A stretch of DNA of 64,000 nt from Nymphaea colorata (Eukaryota > Streptophyta > Magnoliopsida > Nymphaeales > Nymphaeaceae): the NCBI RefSeq assembly GCF_008831285.2, contig NC_045145.1, positions 9,114,802 to 9,178,801 of the forward strand. The letters run 5' to 3'. The notes beneath the pieces were generated by a model that had not been told where the DNA came from, searched no databases, and worked only from the letters and a program-made list of their open reading frames with translations. Position 1 is the stretch's first letter. The number at the start of each line of letters is the position of its first letter. The translations under genes and the position numbers were made by a program. Of this stretch, positions 3,886 to 57,260 are shown piece after piece.

Positions 3886-5050
3886 AGATGAAGAGCATTT
3901 ACGAGATTAAGTAGTTCTACACCATCTGCATCGATCACATGATAAGAATTACCAAGAAGGACTTTCTTTACCACATATGGCCTATCTCGATTTGGTGTCC
4001 ATTTCCCACACGGAAATTTTTTTTCATGGAATGGTTGATCCAAGGACTAATTTATTTTGAACTTCCACTCGATGGCTAATTTGGCATAGTGGCAAACAAC
4101 CTTCTGACAATACGCTTCGACATGTTTGCCACGTGTAGCCTCTTTCTGTATAAAAGATCTAGCTATAGCATCTTTTGTTGTTGGCATTTATCCATGGGCA
4201 TTTCTATCATTACAACAAATCTGTAGGCAGGATTTTGAACATGTAACGGGCAATAGTATATTTGTTCCATATACCAACTCAGTGGGCATTGCATTGGTCT
4301 GGTGTTCTAATGGTTGTTATGTAAGCCCAAAGTGCATCATGGATTTTTTTGCCAATCACAACTGATCTCAACTGTTCTTTCAAATATTCTTATTAGAATC
4401 TTACTTGTCAACTGGACCATTTCCTTGTGGATAATATAGTGCATAAAATGATGCTGATAAAAAATTGAGCATCCTCTCATTCGTGAAGTGAGTGTAATTA
4501 TCTAATGTAAGGTCATGCAGTACTTTGAATTTGCATAGGATCCTCTTGTGGATGAAAGGTACCACGTGTTTGTCTTCCACTATTTTGAGAGTGGCAACCT
4601 CTACTCATTTAGTAAAGTATCGAGTGGCTGCTAGGAAATATTTATAATTGTTTGATACAGAAGGATTGTTGGGGCCCACCATATCGAAGGCTCACATGGA
4701 AAATGGCCATGGAGATACCATAGAATGTCAATATGCAATTGGGGAATGAATGGAATCAATATGCACTTGACATTTGAGACATCTTTTGACATGTTTATAA
4801 CATCTTCCTACATAGTGGGACAATAATAGCCTGCACTTACCAGCTGTTTTACTAAAGATTGGCAAACCAATGCGCAACCATGAGTACCCTGATGGGCTTC
4901 TTTGATTGCCTTCACTTACCAGCTGTTTTACTAAAGATTGGCAAACCAATGCGCTACCATGAGTACCCTGATGGGCTTCTTTGATTGCCTTTTGTGCCTC
5001 ATGTTTGTCTAGGTATCTAGAATATTATGGACTAAAGCCTCTCCTGTACA
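3885..5050 (-). pseudogene. Ty3/gypsy integrase
   Basis: The minus strand shows the zinc-finger end YKHVKRCLKCQVHIDSIHSP (about 4800-4737) and then the core. AFDMVGP (first Asp) lies near 4670, a LDNYTHF block (second Asp) near 4500, and DALWAYITTIRTPEQ near 4340. The C-terminal tail FPCGKWTPNRDRPYVVKKVL lies near 4015-3955. Frames and stops vary throughout. A 79-bp tandem duplication sits in the zinc-finger part. It is clear as integrase and clearly dead. Confidence 0.8.
4834..4991. repeat. 79-bp tandem duplication, two copies
   Basis: 4834-4912 is repeated directly at 4913-4991. Reading base by base I find one mismatch (a at 4876, t at 4955). It lies within the gypsy integrase remnant, and 79 is not a multiple of 3, so it also shifts the frame. 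Confidence 0.95.
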
Positions 5051-6900: not shown

Positions 6901-7540
6901 ATCCTTGGTTCTTGATCTGTGCTAATATTGATTTCCTTGGTAGAATCGTTCAACATGGTGGAAGGTTGATCTTCCTTGTTGTCTTGTTCTGGCTCTAGAA
7001 TTTCTAATGGTTCTAGCATTTGTTGTTCTTTCATTTGTTCAGCACATTCTTTTTGTTTGGCTGGGTCCTTCTACATTGTTTGTGGTACTTCTCCCTTTGG
7101 CACAATGCCAGCATATTGCTTTCTCTGTTATAGAATCTTTGGATTGAGCATCAACTTTGGAATTGGGTGAGATGTTGTAGTGGTTTCTATAGCATACTGT
7201 TATAATGTGGTACCTAGGTCTCCTTAAATGATAGTGTACATGACATGGGAGTGGGGATACGTCTGAAACATAGTGACTAGAGCAACAAGGATGATGGGGT
7301 TTAGGACGTATATGAAGTGGATTGAAGAAAATAGAAGATGGCTGGCTGTTAACACCCTAAAATTTTCCACCCTAGTTGATTGAAGCAATTTCAAAAGTTT
7401 ACAAAAGAGAATTGTGAAAAATTGCAATTTCAAAGCCAATTTCAATTCTAAAGAACAATTTAGATTCAAATCATGAATTTGACTTGTGACATGAATCCCA
7501 AAGCATGATTAAGAGTCCAAACTGGATCCAAATTAGGATT

Positions 7541-7680
7541 TAAAATCCAAATCCAATTACAAATATCATTTAGAATCCAAATCCAATTAAAAATGTCATT
7601 TAGAATCCAAATCCAATTACAAATATCATTTGGAATCCAAATCCAATTAAAAATATCATTTGGAATCCAAATCCGATTTC
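7541..7680. repeat. 30-bp tandem repeat, about 4.6 copies
   Basis: The unit ends in ATCCAAATCCAATTA-type sequence followed by AAATATCATT. It recurs with period 30 at 7541, 7571, 7601, 7631 and 7661, with a few substitutions. It lies in the U3-like part of the possible LTR. Confidence 0.9.
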
Positions 7681-8757
7681 AAAATTCAAATTTTGAATTA
7701 AATTTGAGAATTGGATCTAATTCGATCTAGAAGGCCATGTGGGACTCATGTGTAGGCCCCACCTAGCTCGTGTGGTCAGAACCCCACCCAAGAAGTCACG
7801 CACCCCCCTTTTTCCAAAATATCTTCCCTCAATTAAATAAAAAAATCATTTTCAAAAGAAATGGATAAGGGTTCATAGGAAAAGAGACATTAATCTCTCT
7901 GTCTCTCCCTTAGTTAAAGAAAAATCAAATTCCAAAGAAGCAATAAGTGTTAGAATTAAACTCACCAAACCTACTTAATCCAAGTAGGTTTGACTTGGGT
8001 GCACCTAAATGTGGCACCAATATTAGCTAAGCTCGGTCACCATGAGCTAAGCTCTGTCAATAGGGTAGGTCATCAAATCCACTTTGACAAAGCTTAGTCA
8101 AAGTACAATTTAGCTCAATTAAGAGTTTTCTTAGCTCAAATTGATCAAATTACCTCAAGCCGAGTCAAATTACTCACAAATGAGCTTTGACTTTGATCAA
8201 TTGGTCAAATTTGACCTAGACAATTTCGCCCTTCTATGATCAAATTGAGATTACAAAACCTAATTTAGGATTTTATGAAAGGCAAATATACATTTGGATT
8301 TGTCAAATGCATAAATCAAATATCAAATTGAAATTCAATATTTCAAACCAAAGTTTGAAATCCATCTTCAATCAAGTTATAGACAAAAATACCCTTTTCG
8401 AACCAAATTTGATAGAATTTTTAAATTTTAATTGAATTGTCATAATTCAATAATATTTACAGCTTAGCAACTAGGTTTTAACCTAACAAGCTCAATTTTA
8501 AACCAAGAAAAAATAAATAAAATAAAATAAGACAAAACCTACACAAGGGCATCTTCGTCCAAAATTTTGGTCAAAGTTGGACAGCTAGGTCTGAACTAAG
8601 GTTAACCATGCCTATCCCAGCTCACCTAGCTCATGTAATGAGTTGGGTGTGGTCAATTGGAGCCATTAAACCCTATTTAATCTATTTTACAAGTCCCCAA
8701 AGTCTTAAGTGAGTTTCCAAGATGAGTTAAGGAGGTGGTTGAATTCATCTCCTCCTC

Positions 8758-14830: not shown

Positions 14831-14835
14831 CTCTT

Positions 14836-15080
14836 TATTAACGTTTTGTCAAAGAAGAGAATCAGAGAGAAGGAGGAAAACATGAGAAGAGAGTGTAATT
14901 TTATTCATTGTTGACTTCAAAATATATAGCCTCTTTGACATTAGTGATATACATAGAAACCTCAAATCTTGCCTGAGATCAAGGATTAGCTAATCTTTCC
15001 TAAGATCAAGGATTAGTTCTAGGTAAGATTTCATAAGAAGATTGATTTGCCTTATCTTGATAAGGCATGACTTTTCAACA
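14836..15080 (-). repeat. Copia 3' LTR
   Basis: 245 bp matching 20316-20560. In element orientation it starts TGTTGAAAAG and ends CGTTAATA, not the usual CA. The target duplication CTCTT fixes this boundary. It contains two copies of a CCTAAGATCAAGGATTAG-type motif in tandem. Confidence 0.97.
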
Positions 15081-15090
15081 CTTCCCTTCA
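15081..15090 (-). promoter_or_regulatory. Polypurine tract of copia element
   Basis: In element orientation TGAAGGGAAG abuts the 3' LTR, where plus-strand DNA synthesis would be primed. Confidence 0.8.
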
Positions 15091-16146
15091 AGTTGACACT
15101 CCTGGATTGCCAAGCGCCAACTTGCTTCTTAAATTTTGGAGTGCTTCTCGTCCCAAGGGCTTGGTAAACATGTCTGCAACTTGTTTAGTTGTGGAAACGA
15201 ATTGAGTTTGGATGTCTCCATTTCTCACCACATGGCAATCAATTTTGATGTGTTTTGTTCTTTCATGGAACACTGGATTTGCTGCAATATGCATTGCAGC
15301 TTGGTTGTCACAGAATAATGTCATTGGCTCTTTGTGGACAATCCCGAGATCTTTGAGTAATGCCTTTAGCCAAATAAGCTCACATGTGGTGAGAGCCATA
15401 GACCTATATTCTGCTTCTGCAGATGACCTAGAGACTATTGTTTGTTTCTTGGTTTTCCAGGTGATAGGACTATTCCCAATCATGGTGCAGTATCCGCATG
15501 TAGATCTTCGTGTCATTGGACATGAAGCCCAATCTGAATCACAATATGCTTTGAGGTGAATTGGCCCCTCTGATGACATCATAACTCCATATCTAGCAGT
15601 TCCCTTTAGATATTTCAATAAACGGTTTATGGCTTCTTTATGTGGCACTCGTGGTTGACTCATAAATTGGCTCAAGATGTGAATTGTGTGAACAATGTTT
15701 GGCCTTGTTATGGTCAGATATAGTAGTTTTTCAATCACTTTTCTGTAATGATTTAGATCTTTGAGGATGTCCCCCTTTTCGTTGTCAAGCTTTATGTGTT
15801 GTTCCATAGGTGTCTCACATGGTTTTACTCCCATGTGCCCTGTCTCATGCAGTATGTTGAGAAGATATTTCTTTTGAGATAAGAAGATACCATCTTTTGA
15901 AGTAGCTAATTCTATGCCAAGAATATATCTGAGTCTGGCTAAATCCTTCAACTTGAATCTTTCATTCATCATGTACTTTAGAGAATTGATTGAATTCAAA
16001 TCGTCCTCTGCAATGATGATGTCATCCACATGCACTACAACAATTGTTCGTCCTCTAGTGCCGATCTTGGAAAATAATGAGTAATCTGCCTTGGACTGAA
16101 TATAGCCCATGTCTTTGAGAAAGCTAGTAAGTTTGGAAAACCAATT
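15088..16146 (-). pseudogene. Copia reverse transcriptase C-terminal half and RNase H
   Basis: Continues in the same frame after the TGA. The RT box reads VVVHVDDIIIAED (HVDD for YVDD), followed by LKDLARLRYILGIELA. The RNase H keeps its expected acidic blocks: AYCDSDWASCPMTRRSTCGY, SSAEAEYRSMALTTCELIWL and LFCDNQAAMHIAANPVFHER. The end is VADMFTKPLGREALQNLRSKL, a few bases before the polypurine tract. This 340-residue frame is the best preserved part of the element. Confidence 0.95.
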
Positions 16147-17123
16147 TCAAGATGACTGCTTAAGCCCATATTTTGACTTATTTAGACGACATGTCATTCC
16201 TTCCTCCCCTTGTTGGCTAAAACCAAGAGGAAACTGCATATAAACTTCTTCCTCTAGATCATCATGTAAAAAGACGTTATTAACATCAACTTGAAAAAGG
16301 TGCCACTTTTGAATAGCGGCAATAGTCAAAACACATCGAATAGTAGAGACCTTGGCAACGGGAGCAAAAGTCTCATTGTAATCAACTCCTTCTGTTTGTG
16401 TATACCCCTTTGCAACTAAGCGGGCCTTGTATCGTTCCATAGAGCCATCTGATTGGTATTTGATTTTGAATACCCATTTGCACCCTATGGGAACTTTGCC
16501 AGGAGGAAGTTTTATGATAGTCCAGGTATGATTGGCTTCTAATGCATCAATTTCAGCCTTCATGACACCACGCCATCTAGGGTCCTGCATGGCTTGGGCA
16601 AAGGATGAAGGTTCACATTGCTCAAGGAGGGTAGACATGAAATACTTGTAGTTGGGATTGAAGTTAGTGATATCAAGAGACATTGTGCAATCAGGTAACG
16701 AGTACCTTTTGTGGGGTTTCACTCATCACTCTTCAACAAATGGTTGAAACTGGGCAAGACTGAGAAGCATTTGTAGTCCTTAAGATGAGTCGGTCTATGT
16801 TTAGATCGCATAGATCTGCGAAGCTGGACTGAATCACCCTGAGTAGGCTCGGTTGACTGAGGAATGGGATCAGGGTTGGTCTCATCGTCTCGATTGGATC
16901 GGGTATTATTAAGAGGTTCGCTTGGGTTTGAAAGAAACTCATGTCCACCTGAGACATAGTCATTGAATGGTAAAGGAAGAACCACTTGTTCATTGTCCCC
17001 AGTGTGCATTTCATTTTTATATGGAAAAATGATTTTCACAAAATCTGACGTCTCTACTGGTGAACAACGACCCACATTCAAGATCACAAACCTTGTAAGC
17101 TGATTGACCATATGGATATCCAA
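16147..17123 (-). pseudogene. Copia linker and N-terminal half of reverse transcriptase
   Basis: Two abutting minus-strand frames (17123-16719 and 16722-16147). The first is the variable linker after integrase, ending in a RRSMRSKHRPTHLKDYKC block. The second is the RT start: [38 protein letters not shown], then [19 protein letters not shown] and [20 protein letters not shown]. The first catalytic Asp is kept; HDDL replaces the common HGDL. It ends at an in-frame TGA (16147-16149) after YGLKQSS, where Arg is usual. Confidence 0.92.
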
Positions 17124-17138
17124 GAAATATGCATCGCC

Positions 17139-17987
17139 TTACCTTAAGTCAAACTTGTGATTTTTATGAATGTTGTAGGCATAACATAGACCTCCAAAAA
17201 CACGCATATGTTTGTAGTTTGGTGCGCGTTTGTATAAAACTTCATATGAAGTTTTATTATTTAATGCACTTGATGGTAATCTATTGATAATGTAAGCAGC
17301 AGTTGTGACACATTCTCCCCAAAATTTTATGGGTAGTTTAGCTTGAAAAATCAATGCTCGTGCCATGTTTAGGAGGTCTCTATGCTTGCATTTGACCACA
17401 CTATTTTCTTGTGGTGTCGCAACACAACTATGTTGACGATCAATTCCTTTTTCATAGAGAAAGTTATTCATTTCTTGTGAAAAGAATTCAGTCCCATTGT
17501 CACTTCTGAGAATTTTAATTTTAGTTTGAAATTGATTTTCAATAAGTACGACAACTTTTTTAATAACTCCAAAAACTACATATTTATATCTCATAAGATA
17601 AATCCATGTAGATCTGGAAAAGTGATCAACTATAGTTAGAAAATATTTTGCACCAGCCAATGAATGCGTGTGATAACTTCCCCACACATCACAATGAATT
17701 AAGTCAAGAGGAGAATATGTTGAAATAGTACTGTTGGGAAAATGAAGTCTAGTGTTCTTAGCAACAAGGTAAATATCACATGCATCAACAGATTTAGAAA
17801 TGTCAATGAGGTTCAAACGAGATAAAATAGAACGTTTGGAATCAAAAACATGCCCAAGATGAAGATGCCATGGAGCAGATTTGGTGGCAGCTAGGTTTAC
17901 GCTGAGATTTGTCTCATCTAGGATATACAATGCATTCTGCAATCTACCCATTCCAATCATAGTCGTCGAGTGACGGTCCTGCACCAC
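17139..17987 (-). pseudogene. Copia integrase with catalytic Glu replaced
   Basis: The 282-residue frame holds the pre-integrase HHCC region: WHLHLGH at 40-46, then CDIYLVAK at 70-77, where the second zinc Cys is Tyr. The DDE core follows. Asp100 (HCDVWG) and Asp163 (RSDNGTEF) are present. The position 36 residues later, where the DD35E glutamate belongs, is Lys199 (NSVVKCKH instead of a VVERKH-type block). Both the zinc site and the catalytic triad are therefore lost. The remainder matches the family (ARALIFQAKLPIKFWGE, VFGGLCYAY). Confidence 0.93.
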
Positions 17988-18360
17988 AAAAGAGTTCTCA
18001 TCAATTTTGCTTCACATCTTGAATCACTACAGAGTTTAGGAATAGATATGAAGTTGAATGCAAAGGTAAGAACATAAAGGACATTTTTTAGTGCTATGTT
18101 GGAGCACAAATCTATGTCACCTATATGGGTGACGTTGGCTTTGGACCCATTTGGTAGGCTGATTGGAGGGTGGCTGGCGGAGATGGGATCACGAAGGTTG
18201 GAGATAAGGTTAGTGATATGGTGGGTTGCACCAATGTCAAGGATCCATGATTGTTTAGGAATAAGATATGAAATGGATGAAGAGTATTTACCTAAGAGGT
18301 TAACTCTGGGTTCATTGGTACCTTGATTAGAGTTTTCCATGAAGTCAAGGAATTTTGTGA
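17960..18360 (-). pseudogene. Copia aspartic protease, active site altered
   Basis: Continuous with the zinc-knuckle frame. The active-site motif reads WILDIGATHHIT (Asp codon near 18238), where copia proteases have D-S/T-G-A. Ser/Thr is replaced by Ile, which should weaken or abolish activity. The usual downstream block is visible (LKNVLYVLTFAFNFISIPKL). The frame breaks near 17980, just before the integrase. Confidence 0.8.
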
Positions 18361-19310
18361 ATGGTTGCTCATTGGGTTGATCAGTGGATGTAGTTCTTAG
18401 GGCAGCATTAGCCTTTGGCTTTGTCAATGCATTAGAAGAACCAGACCTGTTAGGAAAACCAACAAGAAAATAACACTTAGCTTTGATGTGTCCAATTTTG
18501 CCACAATGCTTGCACTTCATACGTGGTCTTCCTCTCTCCTTGGTGTGATTGTTTTTGTTTCTTTCATGCACCTGTGGTGGAGGCTGCGTTGCAAGGATAG
18601 AGACCTTTTCTTGAGCATGTACCATATTAACGTCCCTTTGTTTCTCCTCTTGAATAAGAAGAGAATAAGCTTTGGCTATAGTAGGAAGCAGGTCCATCAA
18701 CAAGAGTTGGCTTCTAATGGCAGCATAACTATCATTAAGGCCCATCAAGAACTGCATAAGTTGGTCTTGTTAGTGAAGATTCTCAATAGCCTTCATGGAA
18801 CCACACGAACAATCAGGGATGTTAGCATATAGAGCTAATTCATCCCATAATCCCTTCATTCTTGTGTAATGAACAGCAATAGAGTACTGATTTTGTTTGC
18901 AGTTCATTATCTGAAATTGTATTTGGTAAATGCGTGGGCCATTGGGTTGAGAAAATCGAGCCTCAAGATCGCTCCAAATTTGGGCAGCAGTTTTGGCATG
19001 AATTACACTAGCCAAGAGATCTTTGTGGATGGAGTTTAAAATCCAAGACTGAACCAGGTTGTTGCATCTTTCCCATGTAATTTTGAGGAAGATGGGGCTG
19101 TCAGGCTTGGCAATGGATCCGTCGACGAACCCCAACTAGTTTTTGGCGGAGGCCATCATCATGGCCTTTCTCCACATCATATAGTTATCTTCTGTCAAGA
19201 CATTAGAGACTAAAGGGTACCTGGTCCATCGAAATGATGGACATAATACGGGCTTCTTTTGCTAATGTCATCATTGCGTTCTTTTAGAACGACCTCTCCC
19301 CTTTCTGCCA
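18360..19310 (-). pseudogene. Copia gag (nucleocapsid), frameshifted
   Basis: The reading starts at a minus-strand ATG near 19310 (MAERGEVVLKE). It changes frame near 19220 and continues LTEDNYMMWRKAMMMASAKN, then a TAG where Lys is usual, then LGFVDGSIAKP (19135 onward). The UBN2-type gag core follows (IWSDLEARFSQPNGPRIYQI, RMKGLWDELALY). A zinc knuckle CKHCGKIGHIKAKC (CX2CX4HX4C intact) lies at 18473-18514. The protein would coat element RNA in the particle. A stop near 19134 and a break near 18760 separate the parts. Confidence 0.85.
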
Positions 19311-19443
19311 TCTTCCTTGAGTTAACCTTAGCTAGGCTCAAACAAGTTGCCTTGGATCAGCTTCAAAAATTTATCCAAAAATTCAAGAATCTCAACCCCA
19401 CACCGTCGTTGGCTTGAGGAAGGAAATCTGGGTGGCAGCAGCC

Positions 19444-20110
19444 ATGTCCAAGGCATGGGCTGCGAGCATCTGTACTGCTCTTGCTCTTGGGTAGATCACA
19501 TTGCGTATGCAGACAACTTATTTTGTTTTCCTCCCTTCACCTCTTTTGCCTTCTGATGACGCTTCTCAACCTCGTGCGGACGATGGTGCCACTGCCACCA
19601 AGCAAATTAGTAGTAGAGAGCAGGCCAGCAGTGGAAGTGGGAACTTCCTATGGCTTCGATCCTGAATCACTGGAGAGACGTGCCAAAGCATTGCGAGACA
19701 TCAACAGCTCTCCCTATGCTAAGCAGGTCTTTAACATCATGAGGTTCAAAGACGGCACAATGTTGAATTAGTCAAGATGTAGGAAGAATCCTCTGTGAGA
19801 AATGAACAAGCCAGACGTCAAAGGATAGATGCAAGCACAGCAGCTACAAACGAGGGTCAAAATAGAAAGCTACTAGTGGAATAAATCAATGGTGATCGCT
19901 AGAAGTGGATTGCAGCCTTAAACACTACTTTTGGCCATATCAAAGGTGGCTTCAAAACACTACTATTGGAGGAGCCAGTGTTGTCGCTGCATGAGTTTAC
20001 ACAACTAGAGAGAGAGCTAGTCATTTGGGGCTACATCAACAGGATACCGGCCAGCCTTCACTTATCTGTGAATCATCAATGTCACAATTTCACTATTTGG
20101 GAACAACAAA
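19444..20110 (+). pseudogene. ATAD3-like AAA ATPase N-terminal fragment inside the copia leader
   Basis: On the strand opposite to the element, several frames in order match what I know of plant ATAD3 (mitochondrial inner-membrane AAA ATPase family). They are MSKAWAASICTALAL, then AYADNLFCFPPFTSF, then YGFDPESLERRAKALRDINS with PYAKQVFNIM. After an apparent internal deletion come ELVKM, a stop, EESSVRNEQARR, then MQAQQLQT, KWIAALNTTFGHIKGGF, IWGYINRI, and in another frame GQPSLICESS near 20047-20080. The AAA domain is absent. Frameshifts and stops make it a pseudogene. The pieces join without visible introns. It lies between the primer site and gag, antisense to the element. Confidence 0.75.
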
Positions 20111-20305
20111 CAGAGATGTAAGAAACGAGAGCACCTGGAGGGAAATCTGGCGGTCTACTCAATGATCGTCTGGCTATGTCATGAACGAAGAACCATGGCG
20201 CTGTCCCAAGCTGCAGATGGAATATAGGGCATCAGCGACTTGGTGGACAGAGGGCAGCGATTGTCAGCGTCTTCAACGGCAGCAAACAACAGTAGATGGT
20301 AAAGG

Positions 20306-20315
20306 TCTGATACCA
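20306..20315 (-). promoter_or_regulatory. Primer-binding site, initiator Met tRNA
   Basis: In element orientation TGGTATCAGA lies directly after the 5' LTR. It is complementary to the 3' end of initiator tRNA-Met, the standard primer of plant copia elements. Confidence 0.95.
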
Positions 20316-20560
20316 TATTAACGTTTTGTCAAAGAAGAGAATCAGAGAGAAAGAGGAAAACGTGAGAAGAGAGTGTAATTTTATTGATTGTCGACTTCAC
20401 AATATATAGCCTCTTTGACATTAGCGATATACATAAAAACCTCAAATCTTGCCTAAGATCAAGGGTTAGCTAATCTTGCCTAAGATCAAGGATTAGCTCA
20501 AGATAAGATTTCAAAAGAAGATCGATTTGCCTTATCTTGATAAGACACGACTTTTCAACA
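20316..20560 (-). repeat. Copia 5' LTR
   Basis: Same length as the other LTR. Bounded by the primer site on one side and the CTCTT target duplication at 20561-20565 on the other. Confidence 0.97.
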
Positions 20561-20582
20561 CTCTTTCCACTATAATTGTCAC

Positions 20583-21852: not shown

Positions 21853-22879
21853 AACGTTAACCCATGTAAGAACCGTTTCCAATAGATGCAAGCTGTTCCA
21901 GATTTGTTGTCCCGTCCTTACTTTATACAATCCATTGTTCTGGTGGCTGAGCCAGAAATCAACCTAAGGGCCTCTATTATTTTTTCAAACTTGAGGAGCT
22001 CTCTTATACCCGGAACCTGCCGTATACCCAGTAACAGGTCGACTACTGTCAGTGAATATGCTGCATCTGCATCAACAAAGACCGACTTTGAGTGCACCCG
22101 CGACAGAGTGCCTTCGCCATTTTGGATTGATATTTGTATTTGGAATCCTTTTGGATTGTAGCTTGTATTTGGACCCTATTTTGTATCCAAAACCCAAATT
22201 TATGTAATTGGATTAACAAAAGCCCAAACCACTAAAGTGGATCGGGATCCACTGATCGATCTTCCCACTATGGAAAGGAACCCCATAAACCATTTTGAGA
22301 TGGCTATTGAATGGCAGTTTGAATTCGGTTATTTTCAATTCCAACAGACATTTATTTGAAGTTAACTTTATTTCCTTGAGTTTTGTTGATAGTGGGGACC
22401 CTTAAGATTTGAAAAACTTATTTGGAATCACAGAGCATTTAGCTGCATTAATTCGATGTCAGGGAGAGCAATTCTAACACCAAACTCATGACATGTTGGG
22501 CATGTAGGCATGAGCGTGAGCTTGTGTATTTAAAGATTAACTTAAAGGGTGGACACCCTCCAAGTTAGAATCCGTGAGAAGGATGAGTAGAAAACCACTT
22601 TTAAAACCTGTGATGGATTGCACAAGTAGATGTTAATGTCATCTGGTTTTCTTAATGTGCATATTAGTACTTGCATAGAGCCTAAAAACCAAGGTGCATA
22701 AGCTTTGTAAAACTTGCATTTAGTGCCATCACTGCTGACTGCATGGAACATCTAAAATCCTAGAAAATTTTGCGTTAGGAAAAGCTGTTTGTCAAGTACC
22801 AAGAAATATAATTTTCTCACATAAAGCCTCGTGTTCTTGAGCTTTATTCTGTCATTAAAAGCATGAATCTGATCTTTCC

Positions 22880-25737: not shown

Positions 25738-26059
25738 GGTCAATTACTCGAGTCTCCCATCGGGACTCCTATGTTCATCAATGGTAGCTTCCAAAACAAA
25801 GGCAGATTTAGAGTCCAAATGCGAGATCGTGCCTCCGCATAGATCCTCGAGGTAGATGAAGGGCAAACAATGTACCTACAGTCTGAAACGAGCTTGATCC
25901 ATGTTTGAATCACTGTTTTGGATTGATATTTGCATTTGGACGTCCTTTTGGATTGTCACTTGTATTTGGACCCTAGTTTGTATCCAACACACAAATGTAC
26001 GTAATTGGATTCTCCTCGCATCAAGTATTGTTGTTCATGAGCTTTATTATTTCATCAGA

Positions 26060-31830: not shown

Positions 31831-33547
31831 GCAAAGTAAATTGGTGTATTTGGATTATAATCAGTATGAAATGTTGATTACACTAAAAACAGTTATGGTC
31901 TTCACAAAAGTCACACACCCTAGTAGTGGGGCTTGTGTTAAGCAATTCAAGCCTAAGAGATACACACCTTAAGAACTAGGTGTTCTAGATGAAACTCATG
32001 CAAGATTGCATCTCCTAAATAACAACTATTTTTATTTAGAGGCACAAAATTTCCAATTGTCACTAAAGGAAAAAAAAATAAGAACACACTGCCATCGATA
32101 AATTAAATTCTAACGGTAAAGTCATGAAACATTAACACCTACAAACCATTACATATAGTATTAAAATGCAACCAAATAGATGAATAGACCCCACAATTGA
32201 AATGCATAGCAATGATGGGTAACTACTAAAAAATGAAACAGAGTACCTACTTGCTAGAGGCCCCCCAAAAGGTGCCTGATGATTAAAAAAGAAATACAAA
32301 AACCACATGTTTCCATAAGTAACATTTTTTTGATATTCTAATAGTCATTAGGGGATGGCTATAATTTTTGTGTCCATTTCAAAGCAAATAAAGCAAGAAG
32401 ATTAGCTTGACAAAGTTTAAAGTTTCTACATGCAAGGACTACAAGATCATAACTGAAATCTAAACTGGATGCCTAATTAACAAACCTAAAGACTAGCTGA
32501 ATGGATTTAGGGAGAAATCCAACAAATGGTATGACTGTCGTGTCTTCAAACCCACACTACTAATGCTTATTTTCAACACGTACTTGGAGGAAGAGTATTG
32601 TTTCCAACAATTTGGTCTAAGGAAATATATAGTCACCTGGAAGCCGATGAATCTCATAAATCACCTGCCATCCACAGCCAAGCTTGGCTCCATAGACTCC
32701 CTCCTATCTTCCACTTTCATTAACAACACATTTTAGACACAAATTTTGTTCTATATTTGAGATCACTCCAGTGACAACCTCAGTCTTTAGCCAAACAACA
32801 CATTCTTTTTCATCATGTGAATTGTCCCGCAAGGTTGCTACAAATATTTCACCACATTTCCTCCAAATCCCTGTCACCTTCTTCTTCATACTAAAAGTTC
32901 CTTCACTAGATAATATTACGTTTCTTACTTTCCAATATACCCACACATCCCTACAAAGTTTAACATCCAACATTTTGTTCTTTTAACTCTTCTTAAATTT
33001 ATAAATGCCTCGTACTCTCAATTCCTGAATAAAGTTATGGCGTCTTTTTTCTCTTAAATTTTGCATGAGAAGAGCATATGACTACAGGACTCCTCCTCTT
33101 TGCAGCAACGATGGTCTATTTGTCATTTGACGTTGTTGCAGTATGTCTATCATAGAAAGCCTTCCATTAACAGCATCATAGACAAACTGGCATGCTCTAA
33201 GGCGAAATCCTTTCAGCCAAATCAACTTTCTTAAATCCTTCCTGTTGTATTTTTCATTTCTTTGTCCCAAAAGTCTTTAAGATAGGCTTACCCACATTCC
33301 AAGCATTCTGGAGAAAACAGAATTTGATCTCCAGATTCAGTGATGCCAGAGCTTAATACATTACCTAATGGAAGTCCCAAGCTCTCCTCGAATATTCTAA
33401 AATCCTCCCATGCCAACATATTATAAACACTTCCCACTCCAGTTTTCAACCCAAAACTTAATCCTTCCAGCGCCAACTTTCAAAACCACATCCTTCTCTA
33501 TCCCTGCCATCTCCATTTTATTCCTTTGAAGATCCATGATGGAGATT
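31830..33547 (-). mobile_element. LINE 3' half, decayed
   Basis: Read on the minus strand: a post-RT segment (33476-33288, LALEGLSFGLKTGVGSVYNM), a zf-RVT segment (33240-33082: LRACQFVYDAVNGRLSMIDI, then LQQRQMTNR), a C-terminal W..RN-like segment (DVWVYWKVRN, 32940-32910) and a presumed 3' untranslated part to about 31830. Two portions recur at 46530-46687 and 47008-47970. The RT domain proper is missing. Confidence 0.7.
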
Positions 33548-39780: not shown

Positions 39781-39902
39781 TTTTGGTGACTACACTTTCA
39801 AACACACGTATCCCACTTTGCTCCCCTGCCAACGTCATGTACTGCATTTATTGAAGAAATAGTGAGACTATTAACTTTTTTGGAAAGGATTTCAGTCTGA
39901 GC

Positions 39903-41603
39903 ATGAATATTCAGTGGACATCAGATGACAGTGTAACCAAAATGAAGAGTCAGTATCTCCTGGTCTCTGATGAGAACTATTTGACTAGTTATTCATCCGT
40001 TCAGCCTTCTCTGGTTCATGGAAATTCACAGGGCCATTATGATGTTTCATCTCATGAAGATGCCATCTCATACTGCATGCCTAATGGTTCTCCTGGTCCA
40101 AACTGCTCTGATGAGATTCAAGGAGCGAACTGTACTGCTTGTACATCTCAATTGAATTATTGCACTCTTGACTCATCATTGTCTGCTCGGGGGGTGCAAT
40201 CTTTTTACAGTTCTCCTTCAACACACAGTTATTCAAGTGGGAGCCCTGTTTCACAGCAGGATTCTGGCCAGCATTTACATCATTCCCCTGATAACACCTA
40301 TGGCTCTACTATGGGCTATTCTTGCTTAACCAATGAGGAAACCAACTTGAGACATAAATTACAAGAATTGGAAAGAATGATGCTTGGCCCTGATTTAGAA
40401 TACAGAGATAATTCTGGTACTATGCATGACCATGGAATGTTTGGACCGGATACATGGAGACAGATGTTGGAGATTCAGAAAGGTGGTATGATGCAGGTCC
40501 TGATTGCATGTGCCAATGCTGTTGCTGATGACAATCTCATGTTAGCCGAGTGGTTAATCAATGAATTGAAGCAGATGGTATCAGTTTCAGGCGAACCAAT
40601 GCAGAGAGTAGCTGCTTACATGTTAGAAGGCTTAATTGCAAGGCTTGCATCATCAGGTAGTACTATCTATAAATCTCTCAGATGCAAGGAGCCAACAAGT
40701 TCTGACCTTCTCTCTTACATGCATACCCTATATGAAGTATGTCCCTACTTCAAATTTGCTTACATGTCCGCAAATGGTGCAATAGCTGAAGCATTAAAGG
40801 GTGAAGTAAAGGTCCACATCATTGATTTCCAGATTGCACAGGGCAGCCAGTGGATCACCCTTATTCAGGCTCTTGCTGCTAGGCCAGGTGGGCCACCACA
40901 TGTTCGCATAACAGGTATTGATGATGCGCAGTCAGCACATGCCCGGGGTGGAGGATTGCAATTAGTGGGGAAGAGGCTGTTGGCGGTTGCTAAGTCATGC
41001 AATGTGCCATTTGAGTTCAATCCTGCTGCAATATCTGGATGTGATGTCGAATTGGAAATGCTTGAGGTTCGTCCAGACGAAGCATTAGCTGTGAACTTCC
41101 CATACCAACTTCATCACATGCCGGATGAGAGTGTCAGCACATGCAATCACAGAGACAGGCTTCTGCGCTTGGTTAAAAGTTTATCACCAAAGGTGGTTAC
41201 TCTGGTGGAACAAGAATGTAACACCAATACTGCACCTTTCTTCCCCAGATTCATGGAGACCCTAAATTATTACACTGCCATGTTTGAGTCGATTGATGTG
41301 ACTCTACCAAGGACTGACAAGAAGCGCATTAGTACTGAGCAGCATTGTGTGGCACGTGACATAGTGAACATAATTGCTTGCGAGGGTGCAGAGAGAGTAG
41401 AAAGGCATGAGCTCCTTGATAAGTGGCGGGCACGCTTATCAATGGCTGGGTTTAGGCCCTATCCACTAAGTTCGTTGGTTAATTCCACCATCAAAACATT
41501 ACTGCAGAGTTACTGCGAGCACTATACACTAGAAGAAAGAGATGGTGCATTGTACCTTGGCTGGAAGAATAGAAACTTGGTGACCTCTTCTGCCTGGTGG
41601 TAG
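39903..41603 (+). CDS. GRAS-family transcription regulator, PAT1 branch (scarecrow-like)
   Basis: 566 residues in one exon with no breaks. The N-terminal 195 residues are Ser/Tyr-rich, including SPSTHSYSSGSPVSQQDSGQ (104-123) and the subfamily motif LRHKLQELERMMLGPD (149-164). The GRAS domain fills 197-566: leucine-rich region 198-260, VHIID within VHIIDFQIAQGSQW (304-317), second leucine-rich region about 350-390, PFYRE-type region from 395 (LAVNFPYQLHHMPDESVST), and the SAW region with W508-X7-G516 and terminal SAWW. Sequence and length fit the PAT1/SCL5/SCL13/SCL21/CIGR group. These are nuclear or cytoplasmic regulators tied in Arabidopsis to phytochrome signalling and in rice to gibberellin and chitin responses. 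The first ATG of the frame is used as start. The exact orthologue is not resolved. It is the only intact gene in the window. Confidence 0.95.
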   Translation: MNIQWTSDDSVTKMKSQYLLVSDENYLTSYSSVQPSLVHGNSQGHYDVSSHEDAISYCMPNGSPGPNCSDEIQGANCTACTSQLNYCTLDSSLSARGVQSFYSSPSTHSYSSGSPVSQQDSGQHLHHSPDNTYGSTMGYSCLTNEETNLRHKLQELERMMLGPDLEYRDNSGTMHDHGMFGPDTWRQMLEIQKGGMMQVLIACANAVADDNLMLAEWLINELKQMVSVSGEPMQRVAAYMLEGLIARLASSGSTIYKSLRCKEPTSSDLLSYMHTLYEVCPYFKFAYMSANGAIAEALKGEVKVHIIDFQIAQGSQWITLIQALAARPGGPPHVRITGIDDAQSAHARGGGLQLVGKRLLAVAKSCNVPFEFNPAAISGCDVELEMLEVRPDEALAVNFPYQLHHMPDESVSTCNHRDRLLRLVKSLSPKVVTLVEQECNTNTAPFFPRFMETLNYYTAMFESIDVTLPRTDKKRISTEQHCVARDIVNIIACEGAERVERHELLDKWRARLSMAGFRPYPLSSLVNSTIKTLLQSYCEHYTLEERDGALYLGWKNRNLVTSSAWW

Positions 41604-47007: not shown

Positions 47008-47970
47008 TTGTTTGGCTAAAGACTAGGGTTATGACTGAGGAGTAATCTCAAATATAGGAGAACAAATTTTGTGTATAAAATGTGTTGTTAATGAAAAGTG
47101 GAAGATAGGAGGGAGTCTATGGATCCAAGCTAGGTAGTGGATGGCAGGTCGTTTATGAGATCCACCTGCTTCTAGGTGATGATAGATTTCCTTAGACCAA
47201 GTTAGTGGAAACAATACTCTTCCAAGTACCTGTTGAAAATAAGCATTAGTAGTGTGGGCATAAAGACACAACAGTCATGCCACATGTTGGATTTCTCCCT
47301 AAATCCATTCAGTTAGTCTTTAGGCTTATTAATTAAGAATCTAGTTTAGATTTTAGTTACGATCTTCTGGTCCTTGTATGTAGAAATTTTAAACTTTATC
47401 AAGCTAATCTTCCCGCTTTATTTGCTTTGAGATGGACACACAACTTATAACCATCCCCTAATGACTATTATAATAGCAAAACAATGTTACTTATGGAAAT
47501 ATGTGGTTTTTGTATGTCTTTTTTAATCGTCAGGCACCGTTTGGGGGGCCTCTAGCAAGTAAGTACTTTGTTTCATTTTTAGTAGTTACCCATCATTGCT
47601 ATGCATTTCATTTATGGGCTCTATTCTTGTATTTGGTTGCATTTTTGAATTATATGTAATGCTTTATAGGTGTTAATGTTTCATGACTTTACTGTTAGAA
47701 TTTAATTTCTTGATGGCAATGGGTTTTTATTTTTTATTTCCTTTTGTGGCAATTGGAAATTTTGTGCCTCTAAACAGAAATAGTTGTTATTTAGGAGATG
47801 CAATCTTGCATGAGCTTCATCTAGAGCACCTAGTTACTATGGTGTGTATCTCTTATGCTTGAACTGTATAACACACACCCCACTGCTAGGGTGTGTGACT
47901 TTTGAGAAAACCATAACTGTTTCTATTGTAATCAATATTTCATACTGTTTGTAATTCGAATAGGCCTATT
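47008..47970 (+). mobile_element. LINE 3' end, inverted copy of 31830-32802
   Basis: Reverse complement of 31830-32802 over its whole length with small indels. Shared blocks include TTTGGCTAAAGACT (47009), AATTAAGAATCTAG-like sequence near 47330, GGCCTCTAGCAAGTA (47549), AACAACTATTT in reverse (47780) and GGTGTGTGACTTTTG (47890). It contains the C-terminal coding end and the presumed 3' untranslated part. Confidence 0.9.
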
Positions 47971-50900
47971 TACTTTAATTTGTACTCCCCTGCATCCCTT
48001 AATATTCTGTAGATTATCTGATGTATAGAGAGTCTACAGGTAAAATTTCACATTAATTCATGCTGATTTATTATGTATCAAAATCACAAGAAAAGCCCTG
48101 TAGATGAGAGAGTTTAGTATCTATCAAATTGATGCAACAACTCAGAAAAAAGGAACTTTGAATAAAAAATCTAAGTTATTATAATAGTTTCTGCACAAAT
48201 TTCAAAGAAATGTAAAGTCACTACGCAGAAAGTAATATGCGTGCAAAGTTGAGAAGAAATTCCTTTTGCAGAACTCTGCAGAAAATAAGTCTGACTAAAA
48301 TGTCAAATTAAGGGGCCAAATTAACATTAAATTGCATGAAACTAGGAAAGAATTTGATTTGGACATCTCAATTGAGAGAACTAATTTAATTAAACTAGGA
48401 AATTTGAGGAATTAGTTTTGTCTAAAATCTAAGACAGAAAAAACCAGTTTAACAAGTCACCATGATATAGGGGCCAAATCACAACAAAAGTGAATGAAAA
48501 TGGTAGACACATACACAAAACCAAATTTTTTTATGGATTGCAAAAATGATTTCTGGTTTGAGAGACATAGTTATTTGAAATCAGGTGAAAATGAAGCTTA
48601 CGACAACAAGTCTGATTTTCATCTAACTTAAAATCTAACATCTATTCAACTAGATTTTAATAAAAATCCCCAAATGTGATAACATTAATCACATGAATCA
48701 ATCACATAATTATACTGAAATTTAAAATATAGCAATAAAGTGATAAAATAATAACCAAAAACATGAATTGAATTAAATAAAACAACTAAGTTATGCATGA
48801 AATTAATGAACTATGTACATATGCATGTGCATGTGAACTACACAAAAAAGATAACTAATAAAGACCCATAGGAGATAGGAGAATAGCATGATGCTCACAT
48901 GAATTCCATGAGGGGGAGAGAGAAAGAGAGAGAGATTGAGAAAGGGAGAGAGACATGAAATAAAACTGGGTTGGAGAGAGAGACTTGCCTCTTCTTTCGT
49001 CTTCTTCTCCTTCTTTCCTTGCTAGACCATGTCCAATCTCATTGGAAATCTCTTAGGAAATCTTGAAATTTATGCCAAAGGAAGGAAAATCTAGTTAGCA
49101 AAAAGTAGAAAATAAACTAACTAGAATAAGGGAGAATGAAGAGAGCATACCTTTGAATTCATGCCAAAAGAAGAAGAATAAGGGTTGGATGACCCCACCT
49201 GCTTTTCTAATGATTTTATCTAGATTTTAGCTAATTCTAACCAATCAAATATTTTAAAAATAAAAAACAGGGATTGCCGATGAGTCTTTTGTTGGACGGT
49301 TGAGATTTATTTGGATAATTGATCAAATTATTAGGTAATATTGATTTAAAAATTACCAAGAAAATAGGAGTGGGGTGTGGCACTCCAAGGGTTCCTCTTT
49401 GAAAATGAAGAAAACCCAAGCGAGGCCAAAGATGGATGGCAAAACTGATCTGACGCAAGATGGATCAGTTCAGGATTTCTGATTGAGGATCTGATGTTTT
49501 ATCTAGATTCTAATATGAATTTTGAGTATGGATTTTGAGTTTGGATTTATATCAAAGGTTTAGATCATACTTTGGATTGTGAAAAATGATTTTGGATATC
49601 AGGTGTGAGATATAGATTTGAAACAATGTAGATTCTAGATCAAGATTGTAGATTTGGAATTTAAATTCAAGGTTTGAGATCTAGGCATAGGATTTGGTTT
49701 CAGTCTAGGTTCAATGCTGGGATGTTTTCTTGGACTTGCTCTAAGTTTGAGCTAGGTTGGACGTAGGTCCCGACGAGGCTTAGGGCAATTATGTTTAGTA
49801 TTAGGTCAAATTGAGCTAACTAGGCTAAATTTTGATCTAAGCTAAATTCAAGGTGGGTTCAGACTCTATGTGAGCCATATTGGGATCAGTCTTAACATAT
49901 GAAATATCTAACTTAGGTTTTTGTGGTTCTGTACATCAGAAAATGTGAAAAATATGCACATTTGGCCAAAAATAGGTTGGACCCTGCCGCAAAAACTAGG
50001 TTCTGCGAATCAGGGTGGACATCAGACCATGAAGGTTCATAGGAAATATAAAAATATGTGCTAATGTGAAATTTATTGACAGATGACTTGATTTGCCCTT
50101 GGGAAATCAAAATTTTAAAATTGACCAAGCTATAAATTAAAAATGTGGAGGGAAAAACGAAAAATAGTGATTTAAACTTGTTCATGAGAAATAAATATAT
50201 GGATACTCTCCTCGAGTGATGTTGAATCCATGAGTGTGCTTCGATTCAAAATCGGACTCTTGGATTGATCATAAATTAGTTCCAAAGCCACATGTGAGGA
50301 TGTTTGGATTCAAACAAGGTAGTGCAGTCCATGGCAGTGATGAATTGTATGATCTGGAGGTACTCTATCTGAAATGAAGTTGATAATACTATGTTGAGAT
50401 GTTTGTGATCACATTGATGCAAAACAATCACCAATTTGAATTAGGACTGTGAGAATTTTAGCTCAGAAGTTTGAGCTGTCATTGAGAGCTCCAAACATGT
50501 GGAAGAAATGAGTAGAAATGGAAAATGAGCTAGATTTTAGATGAATGAATCCAAATTCAGCTTAAGATAGTTAACTTTGACCCAAATGAATATGTTGTTA
50601 TCTTGGCACAAGCAAATTGAGAGAATTTCATTTGAGACACTCAAATTGAAGAAGAGAGAGCTTTGTTGTTAGGACAACTCTCTAGAGCTCAAATTAGGAT
50701 GAGTTAGTAGAAACAACTTTGACAATACATTCCTAGCACTCAGAAAACCTTAACATGATCTCCAGAGTACTGACAAGGTGTTAGTGCTACAAATCATGCG
50801 AATCATTGACCTAGTGACTCATTTTAGCTGACATGGAGGGACATGAATGGCTTATTATTGGAATTTGGCCCCAGAAATGGGGTTTGCACTAAAAATAGAT

Positions 50901-55800: not shown

Positions 55801-56885
55801 ATCCTTAACAACGGCATAGTTGTAGCTTTCCTCTTCCTAAGCTGTTGAGAACCCTTATTCATTCTTCAAAATAATCCAACCACTATTCTTGTCTTCGGCC
55901 GGCTGCTTCTTATCATTATCATGGAAACTAAAAAGCTGGACACTACCTTGATCTGAATCACATAACTACTTGCAGATTTCAATCATAACTGAAATCAAGT
56001 TTAATCATAAGTGAAATCAAGTTTCATGTTGCTTGCTACTGTTTCTTGTTTAGTGAATTACATGTAATCAAGTACATATTTATGTTTACATGATCATATT
56101 ATAATAATAAAATTTGATTCTCTGTATTTCTTGATTATGCATTAAGTAACTCATTATGTTGAGACTATTGCATAACAATTTATTTTGTAATATTGTAGAG
56201 GGTCAAGTGAAAAGATGTTAGAATTGATGTGCATCAAGAGGGTCCGTTAGATGTGACCCTCTTCACCATACAACTCTTCAACCTGCAACTGTTCAAGCTG
56301 ACCCTCTACCTTTGCACTCAGTCACCATGACCCTTCATTTTGTATATATACTTCATAATGAAAGTGGTGTATGGTCATTGAAAATTTTCATTTGAGGTGT
56401 GACCCTTGCTCACATTCAGCATACATTGCCTGTACTTACTAGTGGTGGTTGTTGGCTAAGGAGATTATTGGGCTTCACTCCCTCGTTTTTTTTCCAAGAC
56501 GGGAACTGGTTGAAAACACATACTTGAATCCATAACTACTCCATCATTTGCTTCCTCCACCATTCCTTTTGGAGTTTGAGTTATTTTGGGATTCTCTAGT
56601 AGATTTTCCTCTTTTCCAGTTTCAGTAAAATCTACGTATCATTCAATATTTTTGAACGAGGGGCCTCCCATTTTTAAATAATTTTCAATGTTAGTGAAAA
56701 ATGTTTACACATTTGAAAAAAAAACATAAATTTTGATCCTTATTAAGTCAACCATGGCATTTCCATCAACATGATCAAATTAATTAGACTAGGACAACTG
56801 AAACTATTTGGATTCGAAGTGCATCATTTTGACATGCTTAGTTGGATCTGTCTGCTTATAGGAGCAAGTTATCCATCCATTATTG
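52890..56885. other. Spacer, no gene recognised
   Basis: Short open frames without domains. 53365-53660 has repeated TGTCCAT/TTTGATA phrases and begins GAGGCCGTTTGATAA, like some MITE ends, but no matching second end was found. Two TTCAACCTTATAAACAG copies lie at 54206 and 54258. Confidence 0.4.
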
Positions 56886-57260
56886 AATTTTATCATCGGT
56901 CCTAGAGTTGCCAACTTCATCTCTCATCAACTACAACTCATTTTTTCTTGATTTTTTCTTATTTTTAATGTGTTAAGGCAAATGAACTGCTGCTGATGTT
57001 TTCAGTATTACAGCTTGCTGGTACAATAATTGCAGAAATAGCGAATTGTATTTTATCATCATTCCTAGAGTTGCCAACTTCCTTTCTCATCAATTGTGAT
57101 TCATTTCTCCTGATTTTTTTTTTGTTATTTACTGTTTTAAGGTGACTTAGTTGTTTCTCATGTTGTTAGTTTTGCAGCTTGCTAGTACAGTAATTGCAGG
57201 CATAGTGAATTGTATTTTATCATGGATGCTAGAGTTGCCAACTTTCTCTCTCATCAACTT
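56885..57260. repeat. 163-bp tandem repeat, about 2.3 copies
   Basis: TTTTATCAT...CTAGAGTTGCCAACTT recurs with AGAGTTG at 56904, 57067 and 57231. The intervening units share TGATTTTTT, AGCTTGCT(G/A)GTACA(A/G)TAATTGCAG and (A/G)CGAATTGTA-like blocks. Confidence 0.9.

Follow-up and report, generated by a model that had tools for sequence, protein, structure and literature searches.

Spliced ATAD3 mRNA sequence lies antisense between the primer binding site and gag of a Nymphaea colorata copia retrotransposon whose relatives carry other host-gene pieces

The window analyzed here is a stretch of 64,000 nucleotides of the Nymphaea colorata genome (C8:9114802-9178801), which contains a copia retrotransposon on the minus strand at 14836-20560 (Table 1). 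The element has the two LTRs and the 5-bp target duplication of a Ty1/copia element, as well as a copia-type gag and a pol containing an integrase; the order of integrase before reverse transcriptase was read by eye. Pfam matches on the readings of the element were Retrotran_gag_2 (8e-07), rve (1.9e-11) and Pol_BBD (2.1e-10), with a weak zinc-knuckle. The LTRs have diverged by a K2P distance of 0.073, and this copy is not intact or mobile, because gag-pol is interrupted by stops and frame changes. With the gag ATG at 19311, the whole leader extends over 19312-20303. The sequence TGGTATCAGACC adjoining it is taken, as in plant copia elements generally, to be the primer binding site (PBS).

Table 1. 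Features of the copia element and of the ATAD3 fragment within its leader (positions in the window)
Feature	Position	Strand	Remarks
Target site duplication, left	14831..14835	.	CTCTT
3' LTR, copia element	14836..15080	-	230 of 247 aligned positions agree between the two LTRs
gag-pol	15088..19311	-	Interrupted by stops and frame changes; three-frame reading; Pfam gag, Pol_BBD, integrase
Gag-proximal leader	19312..19390	-	GGTTAACTCAAGGAAG-like stretch at its end, before the ATG; present also in short-leader copies
Captured ATAD3 cDNA fragment	19391..20096	+	Antisense to the element; end near 20096 approximate
Parent exon 1, part	19391..19726	+	5' UTR, ATG at 19444, N-terminus
Parent exon 2, start	19727..19744	+	Ends in the 9-nt repeat ATCATGAGG (19736-19744) common to exon 4
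Parent exon 4, part	19745..19945	+	Carries the second deletion, ~90 nt
Parent exon 5	19946..20008	+	28-nt deletion, absent from copy 2
Parent exon 6, start	20009..20096	+	Breaks off before the AAA domain
Stretch between ATAD3 part and PBS-proximal leader	20097..20195	.	20097-20131 is a 35-bp match to C3
PBS-proximal leader	20196..20303	-	Common to group D copies, 77-83%
Primer binding site (presumed)	20304..20315	-	TGGTATCAGACC
5' LTR, copia element	20316..20560	-	
Target site duplication, right	20561..20565	.	CTCTT

Elsewhere in the window, an uninterrupted 582-residue frame at 39855-41603 (plus strand) has a GRAS domain (PF03514, E = 9.7e-146) and is apparently an intact GRAS transcription factor gene. 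An inverted pair of about 970 nt (31833-32798 and 47008-47976, 88% identical) probably represents two copies of another mobile element; it is accompanied by a further direct pair of 158 nt, at 33390 and 46530 (92%). A direct repeat of about 96 nt (22120-22214 and 25916-26011, 90% identical and 3.8 kb apart) may be the ends of yet another element, and self-comparison revealed short tandem duplications, with units of about 80-210 nt, at 4826-4991, 7538-7683 and 56882-57257.

An initial annotation had placed a fragment of an ATAD3 gene at 19444..20110, lying antisense between the PBS and gag in the copia leader. Both the identity and the placement were borne out: the natural stop-to-stop frame at 19418-19768 (plus strand) matched Pfam ATAD3_N (PF12037) at E = 1.3e-11, scoring 44.7 bits where the cut-off is 25, a parent gene is present in the same genome, and the fragment reads on the plus strand where the element reads on the minus strand. 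Four separately read pieces are ordered along the ATAD3_N profile (23-53, 122-151, 182-220 and 225-264), and a composite reading across frames, with X at stops and the frames picked by eye, matched at 4.7e-33; the extreme N-terminal piece gave no Pfam match. The annotated region was right, but the true span is 19391 to about 20096 and includes 5' UTR, the similarity to the parent starting at 19391, where 64 nt match exactly, 53 of them in presumed 5' UTR. Searches of viral contig, genome contig and phage sequence collections found nothing, and a PDB search gave a single, chance-level match (E = 0.24).

When the genome (407.8 Mb in 783 contigs) was searched with 19400-20300, the matches were the window itself, a full-length copy at C2:29030319-29031274 (84%; copy 2), five minus-strand blocks within C2:67569-75734, and a 35-bp place on C3. 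The five blocks, 85-93% identical at the DNA level, take the likeness to ATAD3 far beyond chance. They are exons of an intron-bearing ATAD3 gene, the parent, which we read through to exon 6; its first 418 residues are open and contain ATAD3_N (1.4e-100) and the start of the AAA domain, and each of its introns (84, 337, 173, 1110 and 5415 nt) runs from GT to AG. The exon 2 boundary is a GT chosen to preserve the frame and not a demonstrated site; an earlier choice was dropped because it broke the parent frame. The C3 place (L011 4087-4121) is 97% identical to 20097-20131; no named gene lies there, and inspection by eye of the ORFs at that locus gave no lead.

Alignment to the parent also confirmed that introns are missing from the fragment, as had been noted. 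The junctions of exons 1/2, 4/5 and 5/6 are exactly spliced (19726/19727, 19945/19946 and 20008/20009, respectively). The 11-mers over the first two are absent from the parent genomic stretch, and that over the 5/6 junction occurs there once, by chance; introns 2 and 3 sit inside a deleted part of the fragment and are uninformative on intron loss. Exact removal of introns requires an RNA intermediate. We therefore regard it as most improbable that the fragment was acquired at the DNA level, as filler or by gene conversion during break repair of a resident element. Mosaics of small pieces are known from break repair, and short words are held in common at some of the junctions, but such repair would not have removed introns exactly, nor would it explain why cargo recurs at one position in the element.

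The internal deletion that had been proposed in the coiled-coil part proved to be real, and several smaller deletions exist besides. A 202-nt deletion fuses exons 2 and 4, with the 9-nt repeat ATCATGAGG at the joint; once spliced, the parent (1307 nt) contains only five exact repeats of at least 9 nt. The window element and copy 2 also have in common a second deletion, of about 90 nt, together with three small deletions, and two more, one of 28 nt in exon 5 and another in exon 1, are confined to the window element. Clear repeats are not found at all of these remaining deletions.

The initial annotation had also allowed that a processed pseudogene might have inserted into the leader. A LINE-type insertion of this kind into one element, with the pseudogene then carried along, would account for a spliced fragment, and the fragment is flanked by a near repeat of 14 nt (19418-19431 and 20137-20150) that was equalled in 2 of 1000 shuffles using narrow flanks and 15 of 1000 using full flanks. 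We rejected this repeat as a target duplication, however, because its left member belongs to the parent 5' UTR. Neither a poly(A) nor a target duplication, both of which were looked for, is present around the fragment. Moreover, the fragment keeps the 5' end and lacks the 3' part of the gene, whereas LINE-type insertion usually leaves the opposite pattern; copy 2 shares both the fragment and its deletions, and this slot also houses several further cargos. On this evidence a LINE-type origin is very unlikely.

Capture by the retrotransposon itself, the other origin suggested at the outset, agrees with a spliced fragment that lies inside the element and is shared with a second insertion. Copy 2, which the genome search returned as another copia copy with the same insert, carries the same spliced ATAD3 fragment with the same 202-nt deletion, in an element about 89% identical to the window element over most of its length. 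Its LTRs differ at 11 of 232 positions (K 0.049), and its 5-bp target duplication, CTTCT, is its own, unlike the CTCTT of the window element. Because the splicing and deletions are held in common, one capture must predate both insertions. Judged by these sequences, the ATAD3 fragment is one that was captured once and then mobilised by the element to a new site. Of 690 sites that the parent has in common with the two copies, 33 differ in the window element alone, 29 in copy 2 alone and 21 in the parent alone, with 2 three-way differences. The idea that the fragment is far more decayed, and older, than gag-pol was dropped: most stops in the window element are private to it, without counterpart in copy 2, and the divergence is even.

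Searching for the family with 18800-19443 as query brought up 41 matches; we fetched 20 of them and counted the 17 copies with a gag identity of at least 75% (L014-L030), excluding L031-L033 (74%) and the 21 unfetched matches. Among these 17 copies, the ATAD3 part is present only in the window element and copy 2; in the others the match breaks off at the start of gag and restarts at the PBS or near it. Long leaders, of 685-1221 nt (about 0.7-1.2 kb, with ends set partly by eye), are found in 14 of the 17, two copies (L027 and L029) have 19 nt between the PBS and the gag ATG, and one (L023) was placed in neither class. By sequence, the 14 long leaders form seven groups: A (L014, L015), B (L016, L017, L019, L020), C (L018, L026), D (L022, L024, L025), E (L021), F (L028) and G (L030). 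The groups overlap at the PBS side, with about 100 nt common to A and D and 45-59 nt to B, F and G, and the leader middles of B and F show a weak likeness. The four group B leaders are 96-99.8% alike, a single type of cargo that spread in a recent burst.

The initial annotation missed that other host fragments occupy the same slot in family members. In group E, q119-371 is 75% identical to one of the HSP20 genes clustered in tandem on C4 (antisense, with no Pfam match of its own), and q371-594 is 93% identical, in the element sense, to a C2 cupin gene. In group G, q184-634 lies antisense and is 92% identical to a SCAI gene on C12, over the 5' region and start of that gene; read on its own, the leader matches SCAI at 4.3e-10. 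This SCAI part is set within pieces of a receptor-like kinase gene (C3, 90-100%, antisense). Groups B and F start at the PBS with the same C3 kinase gene (84-93%); for these two groups the host-source queries covered parts of the leaders. In group C, the leader of L018 contains, in order from the PBS to gag, pieces of a Tom22-like gene (86%; Pfam 28.0 bits, slightly below the cut-off of 28.7), of PC4 (93%) and of a C7 gene that has no name (73-96%). All three sources lie antisense, the C7 gene by its ORF only; L018 q161-337 matches a repeated sequence. In group D, q223-444 of L025 is 86% identical to an EF-hand gene on C4 (element sense). Pfam found no named domain in readings from groups B, C and F, and the HSP20-like and SCAI stretches cross no tested intron. 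Within the L025 leader, two pieces at q598-750 match C10:18569649-18569896 with their order swapped, as if copying had jumped back.

As far as sequence comparison can tell, the PBS-gag interval of this copia family is a cargo slot for pieces of host genes. It could be argued that the long leader is instead a retained, useful part of the element, serving in promoter insulation, packaging or antisense RNA, given that 14 of the 17 examined copies have one and that the group B leaders are so closely alike (96-99.8%). We consider this improbable, because the sequence content varies between groups and the reading frames are broken. A FastTree tree built from 20 gag stretches recovered group A with support 0.63, group B with 0.99 and group C with 0.69; D was split, with L022 away from L024 and L025 (support 0.487), and the kinase-bearing group B was distant from F and G. 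Because the gag tree does not fully match the leader groups, recombination between elements may have been involved, or the kinase piece may have been taken up twice.

Seven of the nine host sources lie antisense and two in the element sense; with a one-sided P of 0.09, the antisense bias does not reach significance by itself and needs more cases. One junction bears on how antisense cargo might arise. The PBS junction of L017 reads TGGTATCAGAGCAGAGTAAAGATGAGC where the kinase gene reads GGGTTCAGAGCAGAGTGAAGATGAGC: in this type of leader the kinase piece runs on from the PBS via TCAGAGC, which is common to the host gene and forms the last seven bases of the PBS. A seven-base match has a chance of 1 in 16,384, in what is a single case found post hoc. 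A kinase gene with the last seven PBS bases at the joint is what would be expected if DNA ending in the PBS had paired with kinase mRNA. The Tom22-like piece of L018, which also adjoins the PBS, has no comparable match to it, and the ATAD3 fragment lies 207 nt from the PBS.

From these data we infer the strand and the primer of the capture step. A host mRNA would be present inside the particle, and (+)-strand DNA, whose 3' end is a copy of the PBS, would pair with it by a few bases and be extended, yielding an antisense cDNA that runs from the interior of the mRNA toward its 5' end, a product for which one junction has the expected PBS match. The enzyme may then jump, either at short repeats within the mRNA or from one mRNA to the next; this step is based on two things seen directly, the deletion junction with its 9-nt repeat and the leaders in which pieces are chained. 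Copying would return to the element near the start of gag, because the gag-side leader is retained. The new element would integrate and could spread its cargo, and spread of this kind is evident from the two insertions with different target duplications. The sense cargos (two of nine) would instead require a switch during (-)-strand synthesis. That such a route is recurrent, with (+)-strand DNA bearing a 3' PBS priming on host mRNAs via short PBS matches, so that the PBS-gag interval fills serially with antisense host cDNAs, is a tentative proposal to which we give somewhat less than an even chance.

A doubtful alternative, though one to be taken seriously, is that template switching of the ordinary kind took place on host RNA while the (-) strand was being made; the PBS would then have no role in starting the event, and the template would be antisense host transcripts or ready-made host cDNA. 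It fits the two sources in the element sense, as switching on mRNA would give, and passages of PMC4997597 describe patch insertions and host-gene transduction in retroviruses, in which host RNA is joined at short matches and extra pieces of template are added. However, antisense cargo demands an antisense host RNA or cDNA as template, whereas the fragment obeys the splice sites of the mRNA, and the PBS match at the kinase junction would be left unexplained. The present case also differs from retroviral patches in that it concerns a plant copia family in which one interval is reused; neither an antisense bias nor a PBS match is told in those passages of PMC4997597. Overall, the best explanation, to which we assign a probability of roughly 0.8, is that spliced ATAD3 mRNA, from its 5' end to early exon 6, was reverse-transcribed into the PBS-gag interval in antisense orientation and re-mobilised, as one of several cargos that are sometimes chained, with priming of (+)-strand DNA at the PBS as the most likely route.

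Several known systems resemble parts of this picture. In Bs1 of maize and other genes transduced by plant LTR retrotransposons, several host-gene fragments, spliced or partial, are copied with the element (relevant sections of PMC13317346 and PMC7264820), and, as in Bs1, the fragment here derives from a known host gene in the same genome. In contrast to Bs1 and similar cases, the cargo here lies between the PBS and gag, is mostly antisense, and differs across the copies of one family. The account in those sections of PMC7264820 is that transduced genes usually, but not strictly, have the sense of gag-pol, which the ATAD3 fragment does not, and that antisense extra ORFs are without known source. 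The additional ORFs of Grande, RIRE2 and Retand share with our case an antisense sequence in the internal region of a plant LTR retrotransposon, but in the same account they are mostly between pol and the 3' LTR, open, family-wide and without a host source, whereas here there is a host-gene source, a broken frame and a leader position. Nor is there a conserved antisense ORF: the window element has stops and frame changes, and copy 2 shares the frame-breaking deletions. Pack-MULEs and Helitrons are, like this family, mobile elements whose copies hold different host gene fragments (section 4 of PMC13317346), but they are DNA elements, whereas the cargo here is spliced and RNA-derived. That section, which reviews the routes of capture, names no case like this copia family, and the words antisense, orientation and intron are absent from the main text of PMC3726574. 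A literature search that covered few subscription papers brought up no description of host cDNA lying antisense in the PBS-gag interval, so that novelty is unproven. Host-gene capture as such is already known; its serial, mostly antisense form in the PBS-gag interval looks new.

The wider cargo-slot pattern is a more interesting result than the single capture of ATAD3. Short-leader and cargo-bearing copies exist side by side in the family, and gains of cargo can therefore be ordered in time. The ATAD3 fragment and its parent gene have seven exact runs of 21-64 nt in common, which is a precondition only for a putative silencing effect. If the proposal is true, members of this family would carry host mRNAs as antisense copies, selected by the PBS-complementary word GCTCTGA in the mRNAs, and the antisense cargos could feed small RNAs against their source genes. 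If the PBS-primed route is right, capture of host genes would be not a rare accident but a step that happens at a defined position and follows a rule open to testing, namely pairing of the mRNA with the PBS, and it would provide a simple source of element-borne antisense copies of host mRNAs.
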